Of a stretch of 47,795 nt of DNA, positions 23,310 to 34,694 are shown piece after piece. The position numbers and the translations under genes were made by a program. This stretch comes from Acrocarpospora corrugata (GTDB lineage: Bacteria; Actinomycetota; Actinomycetes; Streptosporangiales; Streptosporangiaceae). The DNA is taken from contig NZ_BLAD01000035.1 in assembly GCF_009687845.1 (NCBI RefSeq), positions 100,576 through 148,370 on the forward strand, given 5' to 3'. How positions within the stretch are numbered: position 1 is the stretch's first letter; the number at the start of each line of letters is the position of its first letter. The notes beneath the pieces were generated by a model. It did not search any database. It was not told where the DNA came from and saw only the letters and a program-made list of their open reading frames with translations.

Positions 23310-23582
23310 GTGCCTGAGATGTATTTCCGGGTGCGTTGGCCGGATGGTTCCTTGCAACGCTGCTACTCGCCCTCCCTGGTGGTCGAGGAGTACTTAACCC
23401 CAGGTCAATCCTACCCGGTGCCCGACTTCGTGGCCCGCTGCGAAAACGCGCTGAAAATCGCGAGCGACCGGGTCGCGGCCAAATACGGATTCGCCTGTAC
23501 GGCCGCCTCCCAGCAACTGACCGAGATAGTGGAGAAAGCCGCCGGTCAGCCCGGCGAGGTGCTCGTCGAAGGATTCGAATAA
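23310..23582 (+). CDS. MSMEG_0570-family nitrogen starvation response protein
   Basis: The 90-residue product reads (V/M)PEMYFRVRWPDGSLQRCYSPSLVV, then LTPGQSYPVPDFVARCENALKIASDRV and KYGFACTAASQQL, which I recognise as the small conserved MSMEG_0570 protein of Nit1C clusters. Its function is unknown. The GTG at 23310 is chosen over a GTG 12 nt earlier because GGAGG lies 5-6 nt upstream and the family begins with 'PEM'. Its stop overlaps the next start (TAATG). It is the first gene of a nine-gene unit. Confidence 0.88.
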   Translation: MPEMYFRVRWPDGSLQRCYSPSLVVEEYLTPGQSYPVPDFVARCENALKIASDRVAAKYGFACTAASQQLTEIVEKAAGQPGEVLVEGFE

Positions 23583-24853
23583 TGAATCTGGACGGCGCGC
23601 ACCACCCGGTGGCGATCATCGGCGCCGGGCAGGCGGGACTCTCGATGAGCCACTGCCTGACCCGGCGCGGCGTCGGCCACGTGCTGCTGGAACGCGGCCG
23701 GGTGGGCGAGGAGTGGCGGTCCCGGCGCTGGGACACCTTCTGCCTGGTGACGCCCAACTGGCAGTGCCGCCTGCCGGGGTACCCGTACCAGGGGGAGGAC
23801 CAGGACGGTTTCATGCTCCGCGAGGAGATCGTGGACTACCTGGAGGGGTACGCGGCCTCGTTCGCGCCGCCCGTCCTGGAGGGGGTCACCGCGCTGCGGC
23901 TGACCGCGGGGGAGCGGTTCGAGATCGTCACCGACCGGGGCACGATGACCGCCGACCAGGTGGTGGTGGCCACCGGGCCGTACCAGACGCCGTACCTGCC
24001 GAGGATCGCCGAGCGGATCGCGGTGCCGCACCTGCACTCGGGCGAGTACCGCAACCCGGCCGCGCTGCCGCCTGGCCCGGTCCTGGTGGTGGGCAGCGGC
24101 CAGTCCGGCAGTCAGATCGCCGAGGACCTGCACCTGGCGGGCCGGCCGGTGCACCTGGCCGTCGGCGGCGCGCCCCGGGTGGCCCGCAGGTACCGGGGCA
24201 GGGACGTGGTGGCCTGGCTGGACCTGATGGGCCACTACGACCGGCCGATCAGCGAGTTCGACGACCCCGACGCGGTCCGGGCCCGCGCCAACCACTACGT
24301 GACCGGGCGGGACGGCGGGCGCGACATCGACCTGCGCGCCTTCGCCCGCGACGGCATGCGCCTGTACGGCCGCATCGTAGGCGTCACCGGCACGACGCTG
24401 CGCTTCGCCGACGATCTGGGCCGCAACCTAGACCACGCCGACGCCGTCTCGGAGGGCGTCAAGGACTCGATCGACACCTTCATCACCCTCAACGGCGTCG
24501 ACGCCCCCACAGAGGCGCGGTACGTCCCGGTATGGGAGCCACCGGACGGCCCCGGCGAGCTGGACGCCACCGGCCTGGCCGCGATCATCTGGTGCACCGG
24601 CTTCCGCCGCGACTACGGCTGGATCCGGGTCCCCGTCTTCGACGGCACCGGCTACCCGGCGCACGAGCGCGGCGTCACCCGCTGCCCCGGCCTGTACTTC
24701 CTGGGCCTGCCCTGGCAGCACACCTGGGGTTCCGGCCGCTTCGTCGGCGTCGGCCGCGACGCCGAGCACCTGGCCAAGCACATCGCCTCCGCCGCCCCGC
24801 CCAGCAAGGCCGTCCCCGCCTACTTCGTCCACCCCGAACTGCTGGGGACGTGA
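23582..24853 (+). CDS. MSMEG_0569-family flavin-dependent monooxygenase
   Basis: The 423-residue product has an N-terminal FAD Rossmann motif (AIIGAGQAGLSMS), an FMO-like RWDTFCLVTPNWQCRLPGYPY segment and a central NADPH-binding motif (VLVVGSGQSGSQIAEDL, near residue 170). It resembles class B flavoprotein monooxygenases and is the standard flavoprotein of Nit1C (Slr0801-like). It probably oxidises a pathway intermediate with O2 and NADPH; the substrate is not known. The start overlaps the upstream stop and the stop overlaps the next start (ATGA), so translation is coupled on both sides. Confidence 0.88.
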   Translation: MNLDGAHHPVAIIGAGQAGLSMSHCLTRRGVGHVLLERGRVGEEWRSRRWDTFCLVTPNWQCRLPGYPYQGEDQDGFMLREEIVDYLEGYAASFAPPVLEGVTALRLTAGERFEIVTDRGTMTADQVVVATGPYQTPYLPRIAERIAVPHLHSGEYRNPAALPPGPVLVVGSGQSGSQIAEDLHLAGRPVHLAVGGAPRVARRYRGRDVVAWLDLMGHYDRPISEFDDPDAVRARANHYVTGRDGGRDIDLRAFARDGMRLYGRIVGVTGTTLRFADDLGRNLDHADAVSEGVKDSIDTFITLNGVDAPTEARYVPVWEPPDGPGELDATGLAAIIWCTGFRRDYGWIRVPVFDGTGYPAHERGVTRCPGLYFLGLPWQHTWGSGRFVGVGRDAEHLAKHIASAAPPSKAVPAYFVHPELLGT

Positions 24854-25668
24854 TGACCGCCGACGCGCACCGGCACCTCGGAGTGCTGCCCAGCTACCCC
24901 TTCTACGGCGGCCCGCCGGTCAACCCCGACATCGGCGCCCGCGCCACCGTGACCGAACTGCTCGCCGACCTGGACGCGGAAGGAACAGAACGCGCCCTGG
25001 TCATCCCCAACTACGGCGTGCCCGACCCCGCGATCGCGTTCTCCTTCAACGAACTCTGCCTGGAAGCCGCCGCCCGCGACGACCGCGTCCGCGCCGGGCT
25101 GTGGGTCTCCCCCCGCCCCGCCGACCGGACCCGCACCGAGGCCGCACTCGCCCTGGCCGGCGAACCGGGCGTGCGCGCGCTCAAACTGAGCTTCCTGCTC
25201 GGCGGCCGGGCCACCGACGCGGACTGCCGCCCCCTGCTGGACCAGATCTTCGCCACCGCCCGCCGCCACGACCTGGTCGTGCACGTGCACACCTCACCCG
25301 GCGCGGCCTCCGACATCGACGAGATCGGCCACCTCGTCGACTGGTACGCCGACAGGGTCGCCCTCCACCTCGTGCACTTCGGCGGCGGCGCCAGCGGCCA
25401 CATCAAACTCGCCGGGCACCGGTTCTTCGACTGGATCGAAGCCGGCAAACGCGTCTACACCGACCTCTCCTGGGCCATCGGATTCACCCCCCGCTGGCTG
25501 GTCCGGGAGATCGGCCGCCGTGGCCTCGGCCACGACCGGCTGCTGTTCGCCAGCGACGAGCCCTGGGGCGACCACCCCGGGGAGCACGCCCGGCTCCGCG
25601 CCGCCGTCGGCGACGGCGAGCTGTCCCGGCTGGTCTTCCGCGACACATTCGAGAAGCTCTACGGATAG
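24853..25668 (+). CDS. Amidohydrolase-family metalloenzyme (Nit1C-associated)
   Basis: A 271-residue TIM-barrel amidohydrolase_2-type protein. The metal ligands are visible: D-x-H-x-H at the N-terminus (Asp4, His6, His8), HVHTS at the end of a mid-barrel strand, HLVHFGG, and the late Asp in LLFASDEPWGDHP. It should hydrolyse or decarboxylate a small cyclic or amide substrate in the cytoplasm. The start overlaps the previous stop (ATGA). Its position between the 0569 and 0572 genes indicates that it belongs to the Nit1C pathway and is not a passenger. Confidence 0.82.
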   Translation: MTADAHRHLGVLPSYPFYGGPPVNPDIGARATVTELLADLDAEGTERALVIPNYGVPDPAIAFSFNELCLEAAARDDRVRAGLWVSPRPADRTRTEAALALAGEPGVRALKLSFLLGGRATDADCRPLLDQIFATARRHDLVVHVHTSPGAASDIDEIGHLVDWYADRVALHLVHFGGGASGHIKLAGHRFFDWIEAGKRVYTDLSWAIGFTPRWLVREIGRRGLGHDRLLFASDEPWGDHPGEHARLRAAVGDGELSRLVFRDTFEKLYG

Positions 25669-25678
25669 GAGAACCCCC

Positions 25679-26191
25679 ATGGCCGACCTCACCGAGCTCG
25701 AGCAGGCAAGCCTCACCGAGATCCCGCACCCCTCCCTGCCCGAAGGCTCCAGCCTGTACGGCGACACCAAGGTCTTCCCCGACTACAAGGCCGAGGACGG
25801 CGAGACCTACTTCACCCTCGTGCACGGCATCGCGCACGAGTCGTCGGTCAGCTTCGTGGCGATCCTCCAGGCCACCCGCGCCCTCCGGAAGGGCTTCGAG
25901 TCGGCGATCTACTTCTACGGCCCCGGCTCGCTGAACTGCCTGGCCACCCGCGGCTTCCCGACCACCGGCAACTCGGCCTTCCCCGGCGAGCACAACATCA
26001 ACAACTCGCTGAAGACGTTCATCGCCGAAGGCGGCAAGGTCTTCTGCTGCCGCTTCGGCCTGTCCCTGCACGGCGCCCGCGAGGAGGACCTGATGGAGGG
26101 CGTGATCCCGACGCACCCGCTGGACGTCCAGGACGCGCTCATCCATTACGCCCGCAAGGGCGCGATCATCAACTCGACGTACATGTTCTGA
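25679..26191 (+). CDS. MSMEG_0572/Sll0783-family nitrogen starvation response protein
   Basis: The 170-residue protein contains ETYFTLVHGIAHESSVSFVAILQ, FYGPGSLNCLATRGFP and GGKVFCCRFGLSLHGA, hallmarks of the Sll0783 family. In Synechocystis the sll0783 gene is strongly induced on nitrogen starvation. The fold is alpha/beta DsrE-like and the biochemical role is not established. AGGAG lies 8 nt before the ATG. The stop overlaps the radical SAM start (TGATG). Confidence 0.9.
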   Translation: MADLTELEQASLTEIPHPSLPEGSSLYGDTKVFPDYKAEDGETYFTLVHGIAHESSVSFVAILQATRALRKGFESAIYFYGPGSLNCLATRGFPTTGNSAFPGEHNINNSLKTFIAEGGKVFCCRFGLSLHGAREEDLMEGVIPTHPLDVQDALIHYARKGAIINSTYMF

Positions 26192-27246
26192 TGGACCGGA
26201 TGGGAACCCGGGTCGACGTCGCCATCCGCGGCGTACGCCTCGACGCGCCGGTCCGGCGGACGGGGGGAGCCGGGCCCAGCGACGACGGCCACCTCGTGGT
26301 CGACGGCGCCAGCGCCGCGATCCCCCTCAACCCCGACAGCCCGTACGTGGTCCGCGACGGCCGCCTGTACCTGGGCGGCACGGACATGGGGCTGGCCATC
26401 CGGCCGGTCCGGCGTCCGCGCTTCTACGACCTGGTCACGGCCGACGGCGTGCCGTACGAGAAGATCGCGAAGCTGCACGGCGCGGACGTGCTCGCCACCA
26501 CCGTCGTGCAGACCTGCGTCCGGTACGGCGAAGCCGACCGCTGCCGGTTCTGCGCGATCGAGGAGTCGCTGCGCTCCGGCGCGACCGTCGCCGCCAAGAC
26601 CCCGGCCCAGCTGGCCGAGGTCGCCGAGGCGGCGGTCCGGCTGGACGGGGTGCGCCAGATGGTGCTGACGACGGGCACCACCGGCGGGCCCGACCGGGGT
26701 GCGCGGGTGCTCGTCCGGAGCGTGCGCGCGGTGCTGGCGGCCGTGCCCGGGTTGCCCGTCCAGGTGCAGTGCGAACCGCCGGAGGACCTGGCCTGGATCG
26801 GCCGGTTGCGCGAGGCGGGGGCCACGGCGATCGGCATCCACGTGGAGTCGCTGGACGACGAGGTCCGGCGGCGGTGGATGCCGGGCAAGTCGACGGTGCC
26901 GCTGGCGGCGTACGAGGCGGCGTGGGACGAGGCCGTCCGGGTCTTCGGGCGGAACAGGGTCTCCACGTACCTGCTGGTGGGGCTGGGTGAGGACGCCGAC
27001 GAGCTGGTCGCGGGCGCGGCCCGGCTGATCGAGCGGGGCGTCTACCCGTTCGTGGTGCCGATCCGGCCGATGGCGGGCACGCTGGCGCGGCGGGACGGCG
27101 TCACCGCGCCGCCCAGGGAACTCGTCAGGGACGTCACCGAACGGGTGGCGGCCCGGCTCAGGGCCGCCGGGATGACCGGCGCGGATCAGCAGGCCGGCTG
27201 CGCGGCGTGTGGCGCGTGCAGCGCGCTGGCGATGGCGGGAGGGTGA
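26191..27246 (+). CDS. MSMEG_0568-family radical SAM protein
   Basis: The 351-residue enzyme has Cys109, Cys118 and Cys121 (TCVRYGEADRCRFC), a C-x8-C-x2-C arrangement in place of the usual C-x3-C-x2-C. A TIM-barrel with QVQCEPPEDLAWIGRL and VSTYLLVGLGEDADELV follows. At the extreme C-terminus three more Cys (337, 340, 343; GCAACGACS) could hold a second Fe-S cluster. It is the Sll0785-type member of Nit1C and presumably performs the pathway's radical step. It overlaps both neighbours (TGATG at each end). Confidence 0.88.
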   Translation: MDRMGTRVDVAIRGVRLDAPVRRTGGAGPSDDGHLVVDGASAAIPLNPDSPYVVRDGRLYLGGTDMGLAIRPVRRPRFYDLVTADGVPYEKIAKLHGADVLATTVVQTCVRYGEADRCRFCAIEESLRSGATVAAKTPAQLAEVAEAAVRLDGVRQMVLTTGTTGGPDRGARVLVRSVRAVLAAVPGLPVQVQCEPPEDLAWIGRLREAGATAIGIHVESLDDEVRRRWMPGKSTVPLAAYEAAWDEAVRVFGRNRVSTYLLVGLGEDADELVAGAARLIERGVYPFVVPIRPMAGTLARRDGVTAPPRELVRDVTERVAARLRAAGMTGADQQAGCAACGACSALAMAGG

Positions 27247-28691
27247 TGGCGACGTCGGTGTGCGACACCCTGCTCGGGGTCGCGGAATGGCAGCCGGAGC
27301 CGTGGCCGGTGGACGTGCCCGCGCTGCTCGGCTCGGGGAGCCCCCGGCTGCCCCGGCCGTTCACGATCGGGCGGGCCGCCGACCGGGGCACCGTGTTCGC
27401 CTACCGGATGCTGCGGCGCCGGGTGTTCGTCGAGGACCAGGGCCTGTTCGGCGACAGCGACCTGGACTTCCACGACGACGACCCGCGGACCGTGGTGCTG
27501 GTCGCCCGCGACCCGGCCGGGACCGTGATCGGCGGGGTCCGGCTGGGGCCCGCCGGTGACGGGCCTGACCTCGGGTGGTGGCGTGGCGGGCGGCTGGTCG
27601 TCGCGCCTGGGCAGCGCGGCGCGCCCGGCGTCGGGCCCGCGCTGGTCCGGGCCGCCTGCGGGTACGCGGAGAACGCCGGGGTGCTCAGGTTCGACGCCGA
27701 CGTCCAGGTCAGGCACGAGTCGCTGTTCGTCAGGCTCGGCTGGCGGCGGGTCCGGCCGGTGGACGTCCAGGGCGTGCCGCACGTGCTGATGCGCTGGCCG
27801 ATCGGCCGGGTCGCGGCGGCGGCCGAGGGGAAGGCCGCGCTCGGGTCGCTGCTGCGCGGGCTCGCCCCCGGCGGGCGCGGCTTCGTCGGCGACGACGGCG
27901 CGCCGGTGCCCGGCAGCGACCTGGTCGCGGCCTGCGACGCGATCCTGCCGTCGATGGTGGAACGCGACCCGGACTGGGCGGGGTGGTGCGCCGTCCTGGT
28001 CAACGTCAACGACCTGGCCGCGATGGGCGCGACCCCGGTCGGCCTGCTGGACGCGCTCGGGGCGCGGGACGCGTCGTTCGCCGCCCGGGTGCTGGCGGGG
28101 CTGCGCCGCGCGTCCGACGCCTACGACGTGCCGATCCTGGGCGGGCACACCCAGTTCGGCGTCCCGGCCGCGCTCTCGGTGACCGCGCTCGGCCGGACCG
28201 CCCATCCGGTTCCCGGTGGCGGTGGCCGTCCGGGGCATCGGCTCCGGCTCACCGCCGACCTGGGCGGTCGCTGGCGTCCCGGCTACACCGGCCGCCAGTG
28301 GGACTCCACCTCGATCCGCTCCACCGCCGAACTCCGCGCCATGCTCGGCGCGGTCGGCACGGCCAGGCCGGCCGCCGCCAAGGACGTCTCCATGGCCGGA
28401 ATCGCCGGCACGCTCGGCATGCTCGCCGAGGCCGGCTCCTGCGGGGCCGTCCTGGACATGGCCCGGCTGCCCCGCCCGCCGGCCGCGACCATGGGCGACT
28501 GGCTGACCTGCTTCCCCGGCTTCGCCATGATCACCGCCGACGCCCCGGACGCGCCCGCTCTGCCCGCCGGTCCCGCGACCGGCGCGGAATGCGGCGAACT
28601 GACCTCAGGCCGCGGTGTACGGCTGCGCTGGCCGGACGGCGAACTCACCGAGGTCCTCAGCGGGCCCGTCACCGGAATGGGCCGGGCGTGA
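27246..28691 (+). CDS. MSMEG_0567/Sll0786-Sll0787 fusion: N-acyltransferase + AIR-synthase-like
   Basis: This 481-residue bifunctional protein has an N-terminal GNAT domain (about 1-190) with the acyl-CoA loop VAPGQRGAPGVGPAL and VRHESLFVRLGW. Its C-terminal half is related to PurM/AIR synthase (about 195-481): GDDGAPVPGSDLVAACDAILP, NVNDLAAMGATPVGLLDAL, ILGGHTQFGVP, KDVSMAGIAGTLGML. The PurM-like half should bind ATP and activate an amide or formyl oxygen, and the GNAT half should acylate an amine. In cyanobacteria these are two genes. Start and stop overlap the neighbours (TGATG; GTGA), consistent with a single coupled operon. Confidence 0.88.
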   Translation: MATSVCDTLLGVAEWQPEPWPVDVPALLGSGSPRLPRPFTIGRAADRGTVFAYRMLRRRVFVEDQGLFGDSDLDFHDDDPRTVVLVARDPAGTVIGGVRLGPAGDGPDLGWWRGGRLVVAPGQRGAPGVGPALVRAACGYAENAGVLRFDADVQVRHESLFVRLGWRRVRPVDVQGVPHVLMRWPIGRVAAAAEGKAALGSLLRGLAPGGRGFVGDDGAPVPGSDLVAACDAILPSMVERDPDWAGWCAVLVNVNDLAAMGATPVGLLDALGARDASFAARVLAGLRRASDAYDVPILGGHTQFGVPAALSVTALGRTAHPVPGGGGRPGHRLRLTADLGGRWRPGYTGRQWDSTSIRSTAELRAMLGAVGTARPAAAKDVSMAGIAGTLGMLAEAGSCGAVLDMARLPRPPAATMGDWLTCFPGFAMITADAPDAPALPAGPATGAECGELTSGRGVRLRWPDGELTEVLSGPVTGMGRA

Positions 28692-29518
28692 TCAGGATGG
28701 CCGCGGTCGCGGCGCCCTTCGGACGGGACATGGAGGACTGTTTCGCCCGGATCGCCGACCTGACCGGCCGGGCCAGAGCCGACGGGGTGCGGGTGCTCGC
28801 CCTCCCCGAGGCGTGTCTCGGCGGTTACCTGGCCAACCTCGACGGCGACGCGGAAGGGCCGCCCGCGCTCGCCGCCGACGGGCCCGAGATCAGGCGGCTG
28901 CGGAGCCTCGCCGGGGACATGATCGTGTGTGCCGGGTACTGCGAGTCGGAGGCCGGGCTTCGTTACAACAGTGTCGTGTGCGTGACCGGGGACGGGGTGC
29001 TCGGTCACCATCGGAAGGTGCATCAGCCGCTCAGTGAGGACAGCTCCTACGCGGCCGGGGACGGGTTCGCCGCCTTCGACACGCCGGTCGGGCGGCTGGG
29101 CATGCTGATCTGCTACGACAAGGCGTTTCCCGAGTCGGCCAGGGCGCTGGCGCTGGACGGGGCCGAGATCGTGGTGTGCGTGTCGGCTTGGCCGGCCAGC
29201 CGTACCAATCCGGCGCCGGACCTGGCCGACGACCGCTGGACGCACCGGTTCGACCTGTTCGACCAGGCGCGGGCGCTGGAGAACCAGGTGGTCTGGCTGT
29301 CCGCCAACCAGTCGGGGACCTTCGGCGACCTGCGCTTCGTCGGCCGGGCGAAGATCGTCGGGCCCGGCGGGGAGATCCTCGCGATGACCCCCGTGGCGGG
29401 CGGCATGGCCGTGGCGGAGCTCGACGTCCAGGCGGCACTCGCCGCCGCCCGCCGGTCCATGGGCCACCTCCGCGACCGCCGCCCCGAGACGTACGCGGCC
29501 GCGGTGGGAGGATTCTGA
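28688..29518 (+). CDS. Nit1-type nitrilase (carbon-nitrogen hydrolase)
   Basis: The 276-residue product is the eponymous nitrilase of the Nit1C cluster. The catalytic triad is intact: Glu41 (LPEACLGGYL), Lys110 (HHRKVHQP) and Cys142 (LICYDKAFPE). Such enzymes hydrolyse a nitrile or amide to acid and ammonia through a Cys-thioester. The GTG at 28688 overlaps the upstream stop. An ATG 9 nt later (28697) is an alternative. A second, catalytically altered paralogue begins 3 nt after the stop. Confidence 0.9.
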   Translation: MIRMAAVAAPFGRDMEDCFARIADLTGRARADGVRVLALPEACLGGYLANLDGDAEGPPALAADGPEIRRLRSLAGDMIVCAGYCESEAGLRYNSVVCVTGDGVLGHHRKVHQPLSEDSSYAAGDGFAAFDTPVGRLGMLICYDKAFPESARALALDGAEIVVCVSAWPASRTNPAPDLADDRWTHRFDLFDQARALENQVVWLSANQSGTFGDLRFVGRAKIVGPGGEILAMTPVAGGMAVAELDVQAALAAARRSMGHLRDRRPETYAAAVGGF

Positions 29519-29520
29519 CC

Positions 29521-30357
29521 GTGGCAACGCTACGGATCGCCGCGGCCTCCGCGCACTTCGGCCGCGACCTGGAGTTCGACCTGCTCCGGATCGCCAAACT
29601 GGTGTCGGACGCGCGCGAAGCCGGTTCCGCGCTGCTCGTCCTGCCCGACGCGGCCCTCGGCGGCTACCTCGCCGACCTGCGCCACCCCGACCCCGACGCG
29701 CTGCCGCCCGCGCTCGACCCCGACGACCCGGCCCTCAAACAGGTCGCCGAACTGGCCGCCGAGATGGTCGTCTGCGTCGGCTACCGCGAAGCCGACGGCG
29801 ACCGCCGCTACAACGCCGCCGTCTGCGTCACCGGCGACGGCGTCCTCGGCCGCCACCGCAAAGTCCACCTGCCCGCCGGCGAAGCCGCCGCCTACGATCC
29901 CGGCGACCGCTTCGACGCGTTCGACACCCCCGTCGGCCGGGTCGGCATGCTGATCGACTACGACAAGACCTTTCCCGAATCGGCCCGCAGCCTGGCCCTG
30001 GACGGCGCCGAAATCATCGCCTGCCTGTCCGCCTGGCCCACCAGCATCACCAACCGCGCCCCCCGAATGGCCCAGGACCGCCAATCCCGCCTCTTCGACC
30101 TGTACGACTGCGCCCGCGCCGCCGAGAACCAGGTCGTGCTGGCCTCCTCCAACCAGACCGGCGCCCTCGGCGGCATGCGCTTCCTCGGCCAGGCCAAGGT
30201 GGTCGGCCCCGGCGGCGACATCCTCGCCAGAACATGGTCCAAGGCGGGCCTCGCGATCGCCGAACTGGACGTCGCCGCGGAAATCGCCAGCGCCCGCCGA
30301 GTACTGAAACACATCGACGAACGCCGCCCATCCAGCTACCGGGCCGCACTCCCGTGA
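29521..30357 (+). CDS. Nitrilase paralogue lacking the catalytic Cys (pseudo-nitrilase)
   Basis: The 278-residue product aligns along its whole length with the preceding nitrilase (GVLGRHRKVHLP, AFDTPVGRVGMLI.YDKTFPESAR, SWTF-free C-terminus ending HIDERRPSSYRAALP). The nucleophile is replaced: the motif is LIDYDKTFPE, with Asp146 (GAC) where the neighbour has Cys142 (TGC). The general base is changed too, LPDAALGG with Asp43 for Glu41; Lys114 is kept. The codon pattern is normal and the frame is intact, so it is under selection as a protein. It cannot do standard nitrilase chemistry. A regulatory or structural partner of the active nitrilase is the likely role, since family members form homo- and heteromeric spirals. 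GTG start, with no overlap. Confidence 0.85.
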   Translation: MATLRIAAASAHFGRDLEFDLLRIAKLVSDAREAGSALLVLPDAALGGYLADLRHPDPDALPPALDPDDPALKQVAELAAEMVVCVGYREADGDRRYNAAVCVTGDGVLGRHRKVHLPAGEAAAYDPGDRFDAFDTPVGRVGMLIDYDKTFPESARSLALDGAEIIACLSAWPTSITNRAPRMAQDRQSRLFDLYDCARAAENQVVLASSNQTGALGGMRFLGQAKVVGPGGDILARTWSKAGLAIAELDVAAEIASARRVLKHIDERRPSSYRAALP

Positions 30358-30469
30358 GGATTGCGCTGCTCAGTTTTGTGACTGTTGGCTGGGGTGATTC
30401 CGGGTGAGGATTGTCCCACTCAGCTACCTGACCAAGCTGTGGTCATTTGGCCGGGGTGGTTCTCGGTGA
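30354..30469 (+). repeat. Two decayed copies of the glycosyltransferase start as coupled mini-ORFs
   Basis: GTG at 30354 opens an 17-codon frame beginning VRIALLSF that stops at 30405-30407. GTG at 30404 opens a 21-codon frame beginning VRIVPLSYLTK that stops at 30467-30469. GTG at 30466 opens the real glycosyltransferase, VRIALLTYSTKPRGG. Each stop overlaps the next start (GTGA), and the first GTG overlaps the pseudo-nitrilase stop. The three copies are clearly related in sequence, 50 and 62 nt apart, and lie in three different frames. Confidence 0.8.
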
Positions 30470-31536
30470 GGATCGCCCTGCTCACGTACTCGACGAAGCC
30501 GCGTGGTGGGGTCGTGCATACCCTCGCGCTCGCCGAGGCCCTGGCTGAGTTGGGCGCGGAGGTTACCGTGTGGTCTCTCGGCCGGGGCGGTGACCTGGGT
30601 TTCTTTCGCCCGGTGGATCCCCGGGTCCGGGTCCGGATCGTGCCGTGCCCGGATGTCGACGGTGAATCCCTGGGAGTGCGGGTGCTGCGCTCGATCACGT
30701 TGCTGGGTGACGCCTTCGATCCCGCGTCGTATGACGTCGTCCACGCGCAGGACTGCATCAGCGCCAACGCGGCCGGGCCCTGTATCCGGACGGTGCACCA
30801 CCTGGACCATTTCACGACGCCGGAACTGGCCGCGTGCCATGAGCGGGCCATCGTGCGGCCATGGGCGCATGTCTGCGTCTCCGGCGCGGTCGCCGGCGAA
30901 CTCGCCGACGGGTGGGGGATCACGGCCACGGTCATCCCGAACGGCGTCGACGCGGCCCGGTTCGCGGCGGCTTCGGGTTCGGATTGGCGGGCCCGGTTCG
31001 GGTCCTACATCCTCACCGTGGGCGGGATCGAGCCGCGAAAGGGCTCGATTGACCTTCTTGAGGCATACGCCCTCCTGAACCCGGCCGAGCATCGGCTGGT
31101 CATCGCGGGCGGCGAGACCCTGTTCGACTACCGCGACTACCGAGCGGCCTGGGAAGCCAGAGCGGCCGAACTCGGCGTGAGTCCCGTGGTCCTCGGGCCG
31201 GTGGCCCACGACGACCTGCCCGGACTCGTCGCCGGTGCCGCCGCATTCGCCTTCCCCTCCACGAAGGAGGGCTTCGGGCTGGCCGCCATGGAGGCCCTGG
31301 CCGCCGGAGTCCCCCTCGTCACCCGCGACCTCCCGGTCTTCCGCGAAGTCTTCACCGGCGCCGCATTGTTCGCCGCCGACACCCCCGCACTCGCCAGGGC
31401 CCTCCGGGAAGCCGCTCTGACCCCGGACCTGTCGCGGCGCGCAGCTGGACGCGATCTCGCCTTCCGGCACAGCTGGAAGACGGCCGCCCAATCCCATCTC
31501 GACCTGTACACCTCGCTACTCGGCACCAGCCGCTGA
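30466..31536 (+). CDS. MSMEG_0565-family glycosyltransferase (GT4)
   Basis: A 356-residue GT-B glycosyltransferase. The N-terminal half opens VRIALLTYSTKPRGGVVHTLALAEALAELG. The donor-binding half has VIPNGVDAARF, VGGIEPRKGSIDLLEAY and the E-x7-E motif STKEGFGLAAMEALAAGVPLV, as in GT4 enzymes using a nucleotide sugar. It is the usual last member of Nit1C in mycobacteria and implies that the pathway product, or a carrier, is glycosylated. The start is GTG 30466, because the family begins MRIALLTYS. Upstream in-frame sequence is repeat debris. Translation probably relies on re-initiation through the two upstream mini-ORFs. Confidence 0.88.
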   Translation: MRIALLTYSTKPRGGVVHTLALAEALAELGAEVTVWSLGRGGDLGFFRPVDPRVRVRIVPCPDVDGESLGVRVLRSITLLGDAFDPASYDVVHAQDCISANAAGPCIRTVHHLDHFTTPELAACHERAIVRPWAHVCVSGAVAGELADGWGITATVIPNGVDAARFAAASGSDWRARFGSYILTVGGIEPRKGSIDLLEAYALLNPAEHRLVIAGGETLFDYRDYRAAWEARAAELGVSPVVLGPVAHDDLPGLVAGAAAFAFPSTKEGFGLAAMEALAAGVPLVTRDLPVFREVFTGAALFAADTPALARALREAALTPDLSRRAAGRDLAFRHSWKTAAQSHLDLYTSLLGTSR

Positions 31537-33929: not shown

Positions 33930-34694
33930 ATGCGGCGCGTCGCGGAGCGGGGAACGTGGCTGGCCATTGGGGCCATGGCGGGGTTGCTGGCCGGAGGGGC
34001 CGGGGTGGCGGTGGCCGTAACTGAGGCGCGGGACCTTCAGATCGTGGCCTGCGTCGGGCCGGACGGCGTGCTGCGCCTTCCGGGTGATTCGGGTGAGACC
34101 TCGCTGGCGACGGGCAGGCCGGTGCCGTGGCCGACGTCCGGCCCGGTCGGGCGATGCCCGGTGGGTCACCGCGAGCTGACGTGGAACGAGACGGGACCGA
34201 TCGGTCCTGTCGGCCCGCAGGGAGCCATCGGCGAGGCCGGTCCCGCTGGTTCCAGAGGCGAGACCGGCGCGGCCGGCGAAAAGGGCGCTGCGGGAGAAAA
34301 GGGCGCTGCGGGGGAGAAGGGCTCAACCGGGGAGCGAGGACCGGTCGGGCCTCAGGGTCCGGCTGGGGAGAAGGGTCCTGCCGGGCCGCAGGGCCAGACC
34401 GGGCCCGCTGGTCCCGCCGGTCTCACCGGGCTGGAGCGGATCACCAACGTCCGCACCTTCCCGCCGGGGAACGGCGGCAGCGGCCCGACCACCTGCCCGG
34501 CCGGGAAGTTCCTGGTGAGCGGCAGCCACCGGGTCGACTCCTACGATCTGATCAACCCCAACGACATCATGTGGGGCCAGGCCATGAACGCCCGGGGCGG
34601 CGCGCTGGACGACTCCTACGGATTCGTCCTGCCGGAGAACAAGAGCCACCGGGACATCAAGGTCACGATCACCATCCTCTGCGCCCAAGCCTGA
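33930..34694 (+). CDS. Secreted collagen-like protein
   Basis: The 254-residue protein has a hydrophobic export segment (about residues 9-30) and a short N-terminal domain with two Cys. From residue 89 to about 167 there are 26 uninterrupted Gly-X-Y triplets (GPI GPV GPQ GAI ... GAA GEK GAA GEK ... GPA GLT), a bacterial collagen triple helix. Charged GEK/GER triplets alternate with GP triplets, which stabilises a helix without hydroxyproline. The C-terminal globular domain (168-254) has two Cys and may trimerise or bind a ligand. The GAAGGGGGAT ribosome site precedes the ATG. Role inferred: extracellular adhesion or hyphal surface structure. Confidence 0.88.
   Translation: MRRVAERGTWLAIGAMAGLLAGGAGVAVAVTEARDLQIVACVGPDGVLRLPGDSGETSLATGRPVPWPTSGPVGRCPVGHRELTWNETGPIGPVGPQGAIGEAGPAGSRGETGAAGEKGAAGEKGAAGEKGSTGERGPVGPQGPAGEKGPAGPQGQTGPAGPAGLTGLERITNVRTFPPGNGGSGPTTCPAGKFLVSGSHRVDSYDLINPNDIMWGQAMNARGGALDDSYGFVLPENKSHRDIKVTITILCAQA

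Follow-up and report, generated by a model that had tools for sequence, protein, structure and literature searches.

The Nit1C gene cluster was described with a single nitrilase, of subfamily 1 (Podar 2005, PMC1199592), and in the parts of that paper available to us the authors could not point to an experimentally determined function for any gene of the cluster; in the accessible text of later work, only the Pseudomonas nitrilase of Nit1C is tied to cyanide assimilation, NitC of the P. pseudoalcaligenes nit1C cluster being reported to hydrolyse 2-hydroxynitriles in this process (PMC11049912). The GlnR-induced gpr cluster of M. smegmatis comprises MSMEG_0565-0572. Its deletion lowers the NADPH/NADP ratio and its expression leads to peroxide resistance, effects that, in the available sections of the paper, could not be traced to any one gene (PMC6039565). 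True nitrilases carry a catalytic tetrad (E61, K148, E155, and C182) and are known to assemble as spirals, according to the excerpts of PMC6214922. In grasses, NIT4A and NIT4B are heteromeric nitrilases (Jenrich 2007, as cited in excerpts of PMC5154151 and PMC3537687).

A Nit1C-type cluster with two C-N hydrolase genes

We analysed a window of 47,795 nucleotides (the whole stretch of DNA under study, positions 100,576-148,370 of contig NZ_BLAD01000035.1 in the 9.27 Mb genome of Acrocarpospora corrugata), in which eight genes form a run on one strand:

23,582-24,853, forward strand: MSMEG_0569 family flavoprotein (TIGR04046, 604 bits, over the cut-off; start inferred)
24,853-25,668, forward strand: amidohydrolase, PF04909 (58.6 bits, over the cut-off; start inferred)
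25,679-26,191, forward strand: MSMEG_0572/Sll0783 family protein (TIGR04044, over the cut-off; start inferred)
26,191-27,246, forward strand: MSMEG_0568 family radical SAM protein, rSAM (TIGR04043, 509 bits, over the cut-off)
27,246-28,691, forward strand: MSMEG_0567 GNAT and AIR-synthase-like protein (TIGR04045 and TIGR04050, over the cut-offs)
28,688-29,518, forward strand: cysNit, a Cys-bearing C-N hydrolase paralogue with Glu41, Lys110, Glu117, and Cys142 (GTG start inferred by aligning it with relatives)
29,521-30,357, forward strand: aspNit, a C-N hydrolase paralogue with Asp at the Cys site (intact open reading frame; PF00795, 1e-34)
30,466-31,536, forward strand: MSMEG_0565 family glycosyltransferase, GT (TIGR04047, over the cut-off)

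The models of the Nit1C neighbours (TIGR04043, TIGR04044, TIGR04045, TIGR04046, and TIGR04050) all score over their cut-offs in this cluster, and it holds no subfamily 1 nitrilase. The first-pass annotation had called cysNit the active Nit1 nitrilase, but it lies outside the Nit1C nitrilase family: against TIGR04048, the model of Nit6803 and the canonical Nit1C nitrilase, cysNit scores 35 bits and aspNit 27 bits, at a cut-off of 502.6. No canonical Nit6803 nitrilase was found elsewhere in the A. corrugata genome, which has no match to this model at 1e-10, and none of 14 genomes has a match over the cut-off. Neither aspNit nor cysNit is the canonical Nit1C nitrilase. Judged by its gene content, the cluster is an actinobacterial Nit1C variant with different C-N hydrolases, of which cysNit is presumably catalytically active. 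The amidohydrolase gene adjoins the cluster in most of the named relatives.

Some other features of the window were noted in passing. The start of the GT gene (GTGAGGATTG...) occurs in three near copies at 30,354-30,494, with spacings of 50 and 62 bases, and the first two of them are short open reading frames ending in TGA; the GT start is single in the three nearest Acrocarpospora loci (L037-L039), and a Sphaerisporangium locus (L045) has an extra decayed GT start too. An open reading frame at 33,930-34,694 encodes collagen-like G-x-y repeats and matches collagen-like adhesin models, below their cut-offs. A search of the window for a GlnR-like motif (one mismatch to the consensus allowed) was uninformative, since it gave 17 matches vs. 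25 expected by chance, and none directly 5′ of the flavoprotein gene.

The sites that set the two paralogues apart were read in the DNA:

28,808-28,810, forward strand: cysNit Glu41 codon, GAG
29,111-29,113, forward strand: cysNit Cys142 codon, TGC
29,506-29,512, forward strand: GGGAGGA, a ribosome-binding-like sequence for aspNit, within the 3′ end of cysNit
29,647-29,649, forward strand: aspNit Asp43 codon, GAC, replacing the catalytic Glu
29,860-29,862, forward strand: aspNit Lys114 codon, AAA, the catalytic Lys retained
29,881-29,883, forward strand: aspNit Glu121 codon, GAA, the second Glu retained
29,956-29,958, forward strand: aspNit Asp146 codon, GAC, replacing the catalytic Cys
30,354-30,465, forward strand: two degenerate extra copies of the GT start (GTGAGGATTG...), each closed by TGA

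As the first-pass annotation had stated, the second copy is full length with intact coding quality: its reading frame runs uninterrupted from the GTG at 29,521 to the TGA at 30,357 (278 aa), its GC3 is 0.90 vs. 0.92 for cysNit, and it matches PF00795 (CN_hydrolase) at 1e-34, a model that also matches 53 out of 53 members of alignment A1. Two bases separate the cysNit stop from the aspNit start, the GGGAGGA ends 8 bases 5′ of the GTG, and the two proteins share 58% identity. The replacement of Cys142 of the neighbour by Asp146, and of Glu41 by Asp43, was likewise given with the right residue numbers; the further statement that only Lys remains is slightly off, because, besides Lys114, the superfamily tetrad's second Glu (Glu121) is retained. 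The nearest solved sequences to aspNit are Pyrococcus-type C-N hydrolases (1j31, 3ivz, 6ypa, and 7ovg) and an N-carbamoylputrescine amidohydrolase (5h8k); at the Asp site, the deposited chains have Cys (1j31 and 3ivz), Ala (7ovg and 6ypa), or Ser (5h8k).

Distribution and conservation of the Asp-bearing paralogue

The nearest named relatives are other Acrocarpospora (aspNit 91-94% identical), and both genes are present in five out of five genomes of the genus, A. corrugata included. Among 460 relatives from a scan of named genomes we analysed the best 80, and in all 80 loci cysNit is followed by aspNit on one strand, 72 of them having the identical eight-gene order. In five of the other eight a contig end truncates the locus (L044, L051, L071, L085, and L116), and L094 has the cluster without the amidohydrolase. 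L059 (Streptomyces sp. MNU76) has MSMEG_0567, cysNit, aspNit, and GT, and the flavoprotein, amidohydrolase, MSMEG_0572, and rSAM genes were not found upstream, where the contig does not end. In L065 (Streptomyces sp. P3, 4,233-8,989), the amidohydrolase, rSAM, and cysNit are each in reading-frame pieces and aspNit is intact; because there are so many splits, sequencing errors are likelier than decay. Of 79 named loci examined, 45 show a four-base overlap between the cysNit stop and the closest start available to aspNit. In four Sphaerisporangium-like loci that were checked, a TGA flagged as internal is simply the ordinary stop, close to the C-terminus.

In the family sample, 39 of 341 genomes match the aspNit query at 1e-40; each of the 39 has a close match (78-100%), and 38 have a second match at the cysNit level, the exception (G027) having aspNit without cysNit or rSAM in a cluster with an internal deletion. 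The class sample has matches in 49 of 394 genomes, 33 at the aspNit level (at least 64% identity) and 16 at the cysNit level only, an assignment made by identity, with residues read in the fetched loci only. In the phylum sample nine of 396 genomes match, five of them outside the class; one of these five (G1033) has both genes in the cluster, and four have Cys-bearing copies only. Gene order differs in other families (cysNit-flavoprotein-aspNit-GT, or MSMEG_0572-cysNit-flavoprotein-rSAM-MSMEG_0567-aspNit-GT), and there aspNit still lies within the cluster, usually directly 5′ of GT. The Rhodococcus qingshengii plasmid pLP1 (L220, 51-12,437) also carries the cluster with both nitrilase genes, whose residues are Glu-Lys-Glu-Cys and Asp-Lys-Glu-Asp; the cluster is flanked there by two identical IS3 transposase genes, an arrangement like that of a composite transposon.

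Among 118 distinct aspNit sequences, Lys and the Asp at the Cys site are each found in 118, and the second Glu in 117 (the exception, L180, depends on the alignment); the first Glu site has Asp (109), Gly (7), His (1), or Gln (1), and never Glu. All 126 distinct cysNit sequences have Glu-Lys-Glu-Cys. These counts leave out matches shorter than 240 aa, including the three cysNit pieces of L065, and treat L183 as a cysNit (Glu-Lys-Glu-Cys), though it matches the aspNit query better. Of the six peptide patterns used in the scan of named genomes, one includes the Asp; the genomes themselves were searched with the whole protein, so that Cys-bearing members of the aspNit lineage could have turned up. 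A quick-search tree was built from 103 of 244 rows. All 47 aspNit rows in it group in a single clade (SH-aLRT 94, just under the 95 that earns a star); four Cys-bearing copies from outside the class stand beside it with weak support (81), and no other cluster gene was found around these four in the fetched stretches.

The two genes were compared in 40 disjoint pairs, drawn from the window together with the named loci, of which all but L065 were used (79 of 80). The median omega is 0.10 for aspNit vs. 0.16 for cysNit, with all aspNit values below about 0.21, and aspNit is the more identical protein in 37 of the 40 pairs (3,025 when all 3,160 non-independent pairs are counted). Ranked among the eight cluster proteins, aspNit is the second most conserved in 68 of 72 loci, a rank biased by the retrieval of these loci with aspNit. 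Among 22 large loci from further genomes in which both genes are present, found with aspNit but not cut by rank, aspNit is closer than cysNit to the window copy in 20, and the reverse holds in L148 and L205. By these comparisons purifying selection acts on aspNit, and its conservation usually exceeds that of cysNit, with the bias that aspNit was the query by which most loci were retrieved.

A paralogue confined to this strain and drifting neutrally, which the first-pass annotation had named as an outcome that would count against it, is not what we found: the search it had proposed, for a second nitrilase with Asp in such clusters, returned the pair throughout the 80 best named loci and the Asp in every distinct sequence, within one clade and at an omega of about 0.1. 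The pairs in relatives, together with selection, rule out local decay or a strain-specific duplicate. That aspNit is a relic or neutral duplicate is accordingly highly improbable; it has lost the catalytic Cys, is absent in some lineages, and stands in a deleted cluster in G027, but its low omega in disjoint pairs, its single clade, and its invariant Asp contradict such a reading. Since the same sister with the same Asp is kept in many actinobacteria, aspNit looks like an old, working part of the cluster and not like a decaying copy.

Possible roles of aspNit

Hydrolases of the nitrilase family need Glu, Lys, and Cys. Because aspNit has no Cys and a variable first Glu site, ordinary nitrilase or amidase turnover by it is very unlikely. 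By sequence it is a member of the PF00795 superfamily in which the catalytic Glu-Lys-Cys is absent from all 118 distinct proteins, and it has the mark of a pseudoenzyme, catalytic residues lost while under purifying selection; it is probably a non-hydrolytic pseudoenzyme. We infer that the invariant Asp beside the retained Lys most plausibly serves as a substitute counter-charge: Asp146 would take over the negative charge of Cys/Glu beside the buried Lys and so give a stable, closed, non-hydrolytic pocket.

The same residues could instead do chemistry, with Asp146, Lys114, and Glu121 performing acid-base or aspartyl catalysis on a Nit1C intermediate without a thiol. Such a neofunctionalised enzyme, which might carry out a hydration, dehydration, or lyase-like reaction, seems unlikely to us, and somewhat less likely still is the specific version in which a thiol-free Asp-Lys-Glu centre catalyses a step of the unsolved actinobacterial Nit1C pathway; if true, it would be a new reaction type for the nitrilase superfamily. 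In favour of an enzyme are the constancy of Asp, Lys, and second Glu and the retention in aspNit of 43 of 50 columns invariant in cysNit (55 cysNit and 53 aspNit rows); aspNit is also both more strongly conserved than cysNit and found without it in one class genome (G367, below). However, any of Asp, Gly, His, and Gln can occupy the first Glu site, L115 and F212 are fixed in cysNit and variable in aspNit, and no precedent was found in the literature searched.

The counter-charge reading extends, with less assurance, to a partner: aspNit and cysNit may pair through the common nitrilase dimer face, in a mixed assembly that may order the cysNit active site or set its specificity (cf. grass NIT4 heteromers). 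The first-pass annotation had suggested that a dead paralogue could regulate or template the live one, or could use its Asp for new chemistry. Seven aspNit-invariant residues are minority residues in cysNit, four of them at aspNit positions 188-201, and four of the ten sites with different fixed residues fall within cysNit positions 184-197; in the alignment to Pyrococcus-type enzymes this stretch matches the helix ending R-A-x-E-N, which we take to be part of the common dimer face. Two Cys-bearing cluster copies from another class (L183 and L187) have the aspNit residue at several such positions, and therefore cysNit may itself have changed there. The differences in this region fit partner divergence, and descent would explain them equally. 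No fused cysNit-aspNit gene (Rosetta-stone evidence) was seen in 142 pairs, repeats of a genome included.

Mirror-tree comparisons gave no sign, in three locus sets, of special coevolution of cysNit with aspNit: by partial correlation the pair ranks 28th of 28 gene pairs in the named set, 8th of 21 with deep loci added, and 20th of 21 in the deep loci alone, values that are weak, set-dependent, and uncalibrated. The highest correlations of aspNit are with rSAM (72-locus set) and the flavoprotein (18-locus deep set), which would suit a role in ligand binding, regulation, or scaffolding with rSAM, the flavoprotein, or GT as the partner and not cysNit. In many distant clusters, moreover, aspNit adjoins the flavoprotein and GT, apart from cysNit, and cysNit persists without aspNit. 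We nevertheless regard a partner other than cysNit as improbable, given the weakness and set-dependence of those uncalibrated values and the occurrence of rSAM without aspNit in 16 class genomes.

In the class sample, rSAM (TIGR04043 at 1e-80) is found in 54 of 394 genomes. Six of these have a weaker rSAM form and match neither cysNit nor aspNit; in each of the remaining 48 cysNit is present, accompanied by aspNit in 32 and without it in 16. Strong rSAM is present in 32 of the 33 aspNit-bearing genomes (hypergeometric p of 6e-34, which ignores relatedness); the sole exception, G367, has no cysNit match at 1e-40, and its orphan aspNit (L164, 6,342-7,205) has Asp, Lys, and Glu intact. We read 12 of the 16 loci without aspNit: ten have rSAM, cysNit, and GT, which also speaks against a partner other than cysNit, and the other two (L172 and L173) start close to or at the end of a contig. 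Counting L172 and L173, ten of the 12 yielded no MSMEG_0569 flavoprotein either. The gap 5′ of GT was read in two, L158 and L160, and holds an open reading frame for another FAD-binding protein. L157 and L161 retain the flavoprotein and lack aspNit alone; their cysNits are nested among partnered ones in the tree, and these absences are therefore probably losses. Because 16 of the 48 genomes have no aspNit match and L157 and L161 are nested in this way, cysNit can evidently do without aspNit, and these clusters, together with the G367 orphan, speak against an obligate pair. The full reading, of aspNit as a charge-locked pseudoenzyme subunit of actinobacterial Nit1C that assembles with cysNit, is put forward tentatively as the best of the readings considered, at slightly less than even odds.

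Comparison with described systems

The M. smegmatis gpr cluster matches the f4 loci L144-L147 in gene families and order, as far as the available text of PMC6039565 describes it, and this synteny suggests that MSMEG_0566 is aspNit and MSMEG_0571 is cysNit. MSMEG_0566 is termed a putative aliphatic amidase there, with no mention of a missing Cys in the available sections. The published expression ratios under nitrogen limitation are 2.96 for MSMEG_0566 and 4.06 for MSMEG_0571 (PMC4617892), and those of the wild type vs. a glnR deletion under nitrogen starvation are 8.94 and 48.04 (PMC4222082). According to a proposal in the accessible part of PMC6039565, translation continues from MSMEG_0571 into MSMEG_0569 by decoding the terminal UGA of the former as selenocysteine; in L144-L147 cysNit has its Cys, and a stop lies 5′ of the flavoprotein match.

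The literature searched (open-licence papers) yielded no account of a nitrilase paralogue without Cys in Nit1C, and database records label aspNit an amidase or a carbon-nitrogen hydrolase, so that it is probably misnamed there, and naming it corrects a likely misannotation. Nit1C is widespread, and if aspNit is a conserved non-canonical subunit, the pathway should be reconstituted with both genes together; if aspNit tunes cysNit, the pair would be a bacterial model for dead subunits acting on nitrilase-fold enzymes.

Similar to canonical Nit1C, as described in the excerpts available, the window cluster has genes for a radical SAM protein, a GNAT protein, an AIR-synthase-like protein, a flavoprotein, and a C-N hydrolase; it also has a glycosyltransferase, which in canonical Nit1C occurs in two betaproteobacterial genera. 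Canonical Nit1C is described with one nitrilase, whereas the window cluster has two proteins outside the Nit6803 model, one of them with Asp, and an amidohydrolase gene. Like grass NIT4A/NIT4B, it has two nitrilase paralogues, and the NIT4 activity derives from a mixed complex; the NIT4 partners, however, are true nitrilases of plants for which the portions of the sources at hand mention no loss of Cys, and their heteromer is reported, whereas one of cysNit and aspNit is our inference. Dead paralogues beside a live enzyme are a known kind, and aspNit in Nit1C appears to be a new variant of it.
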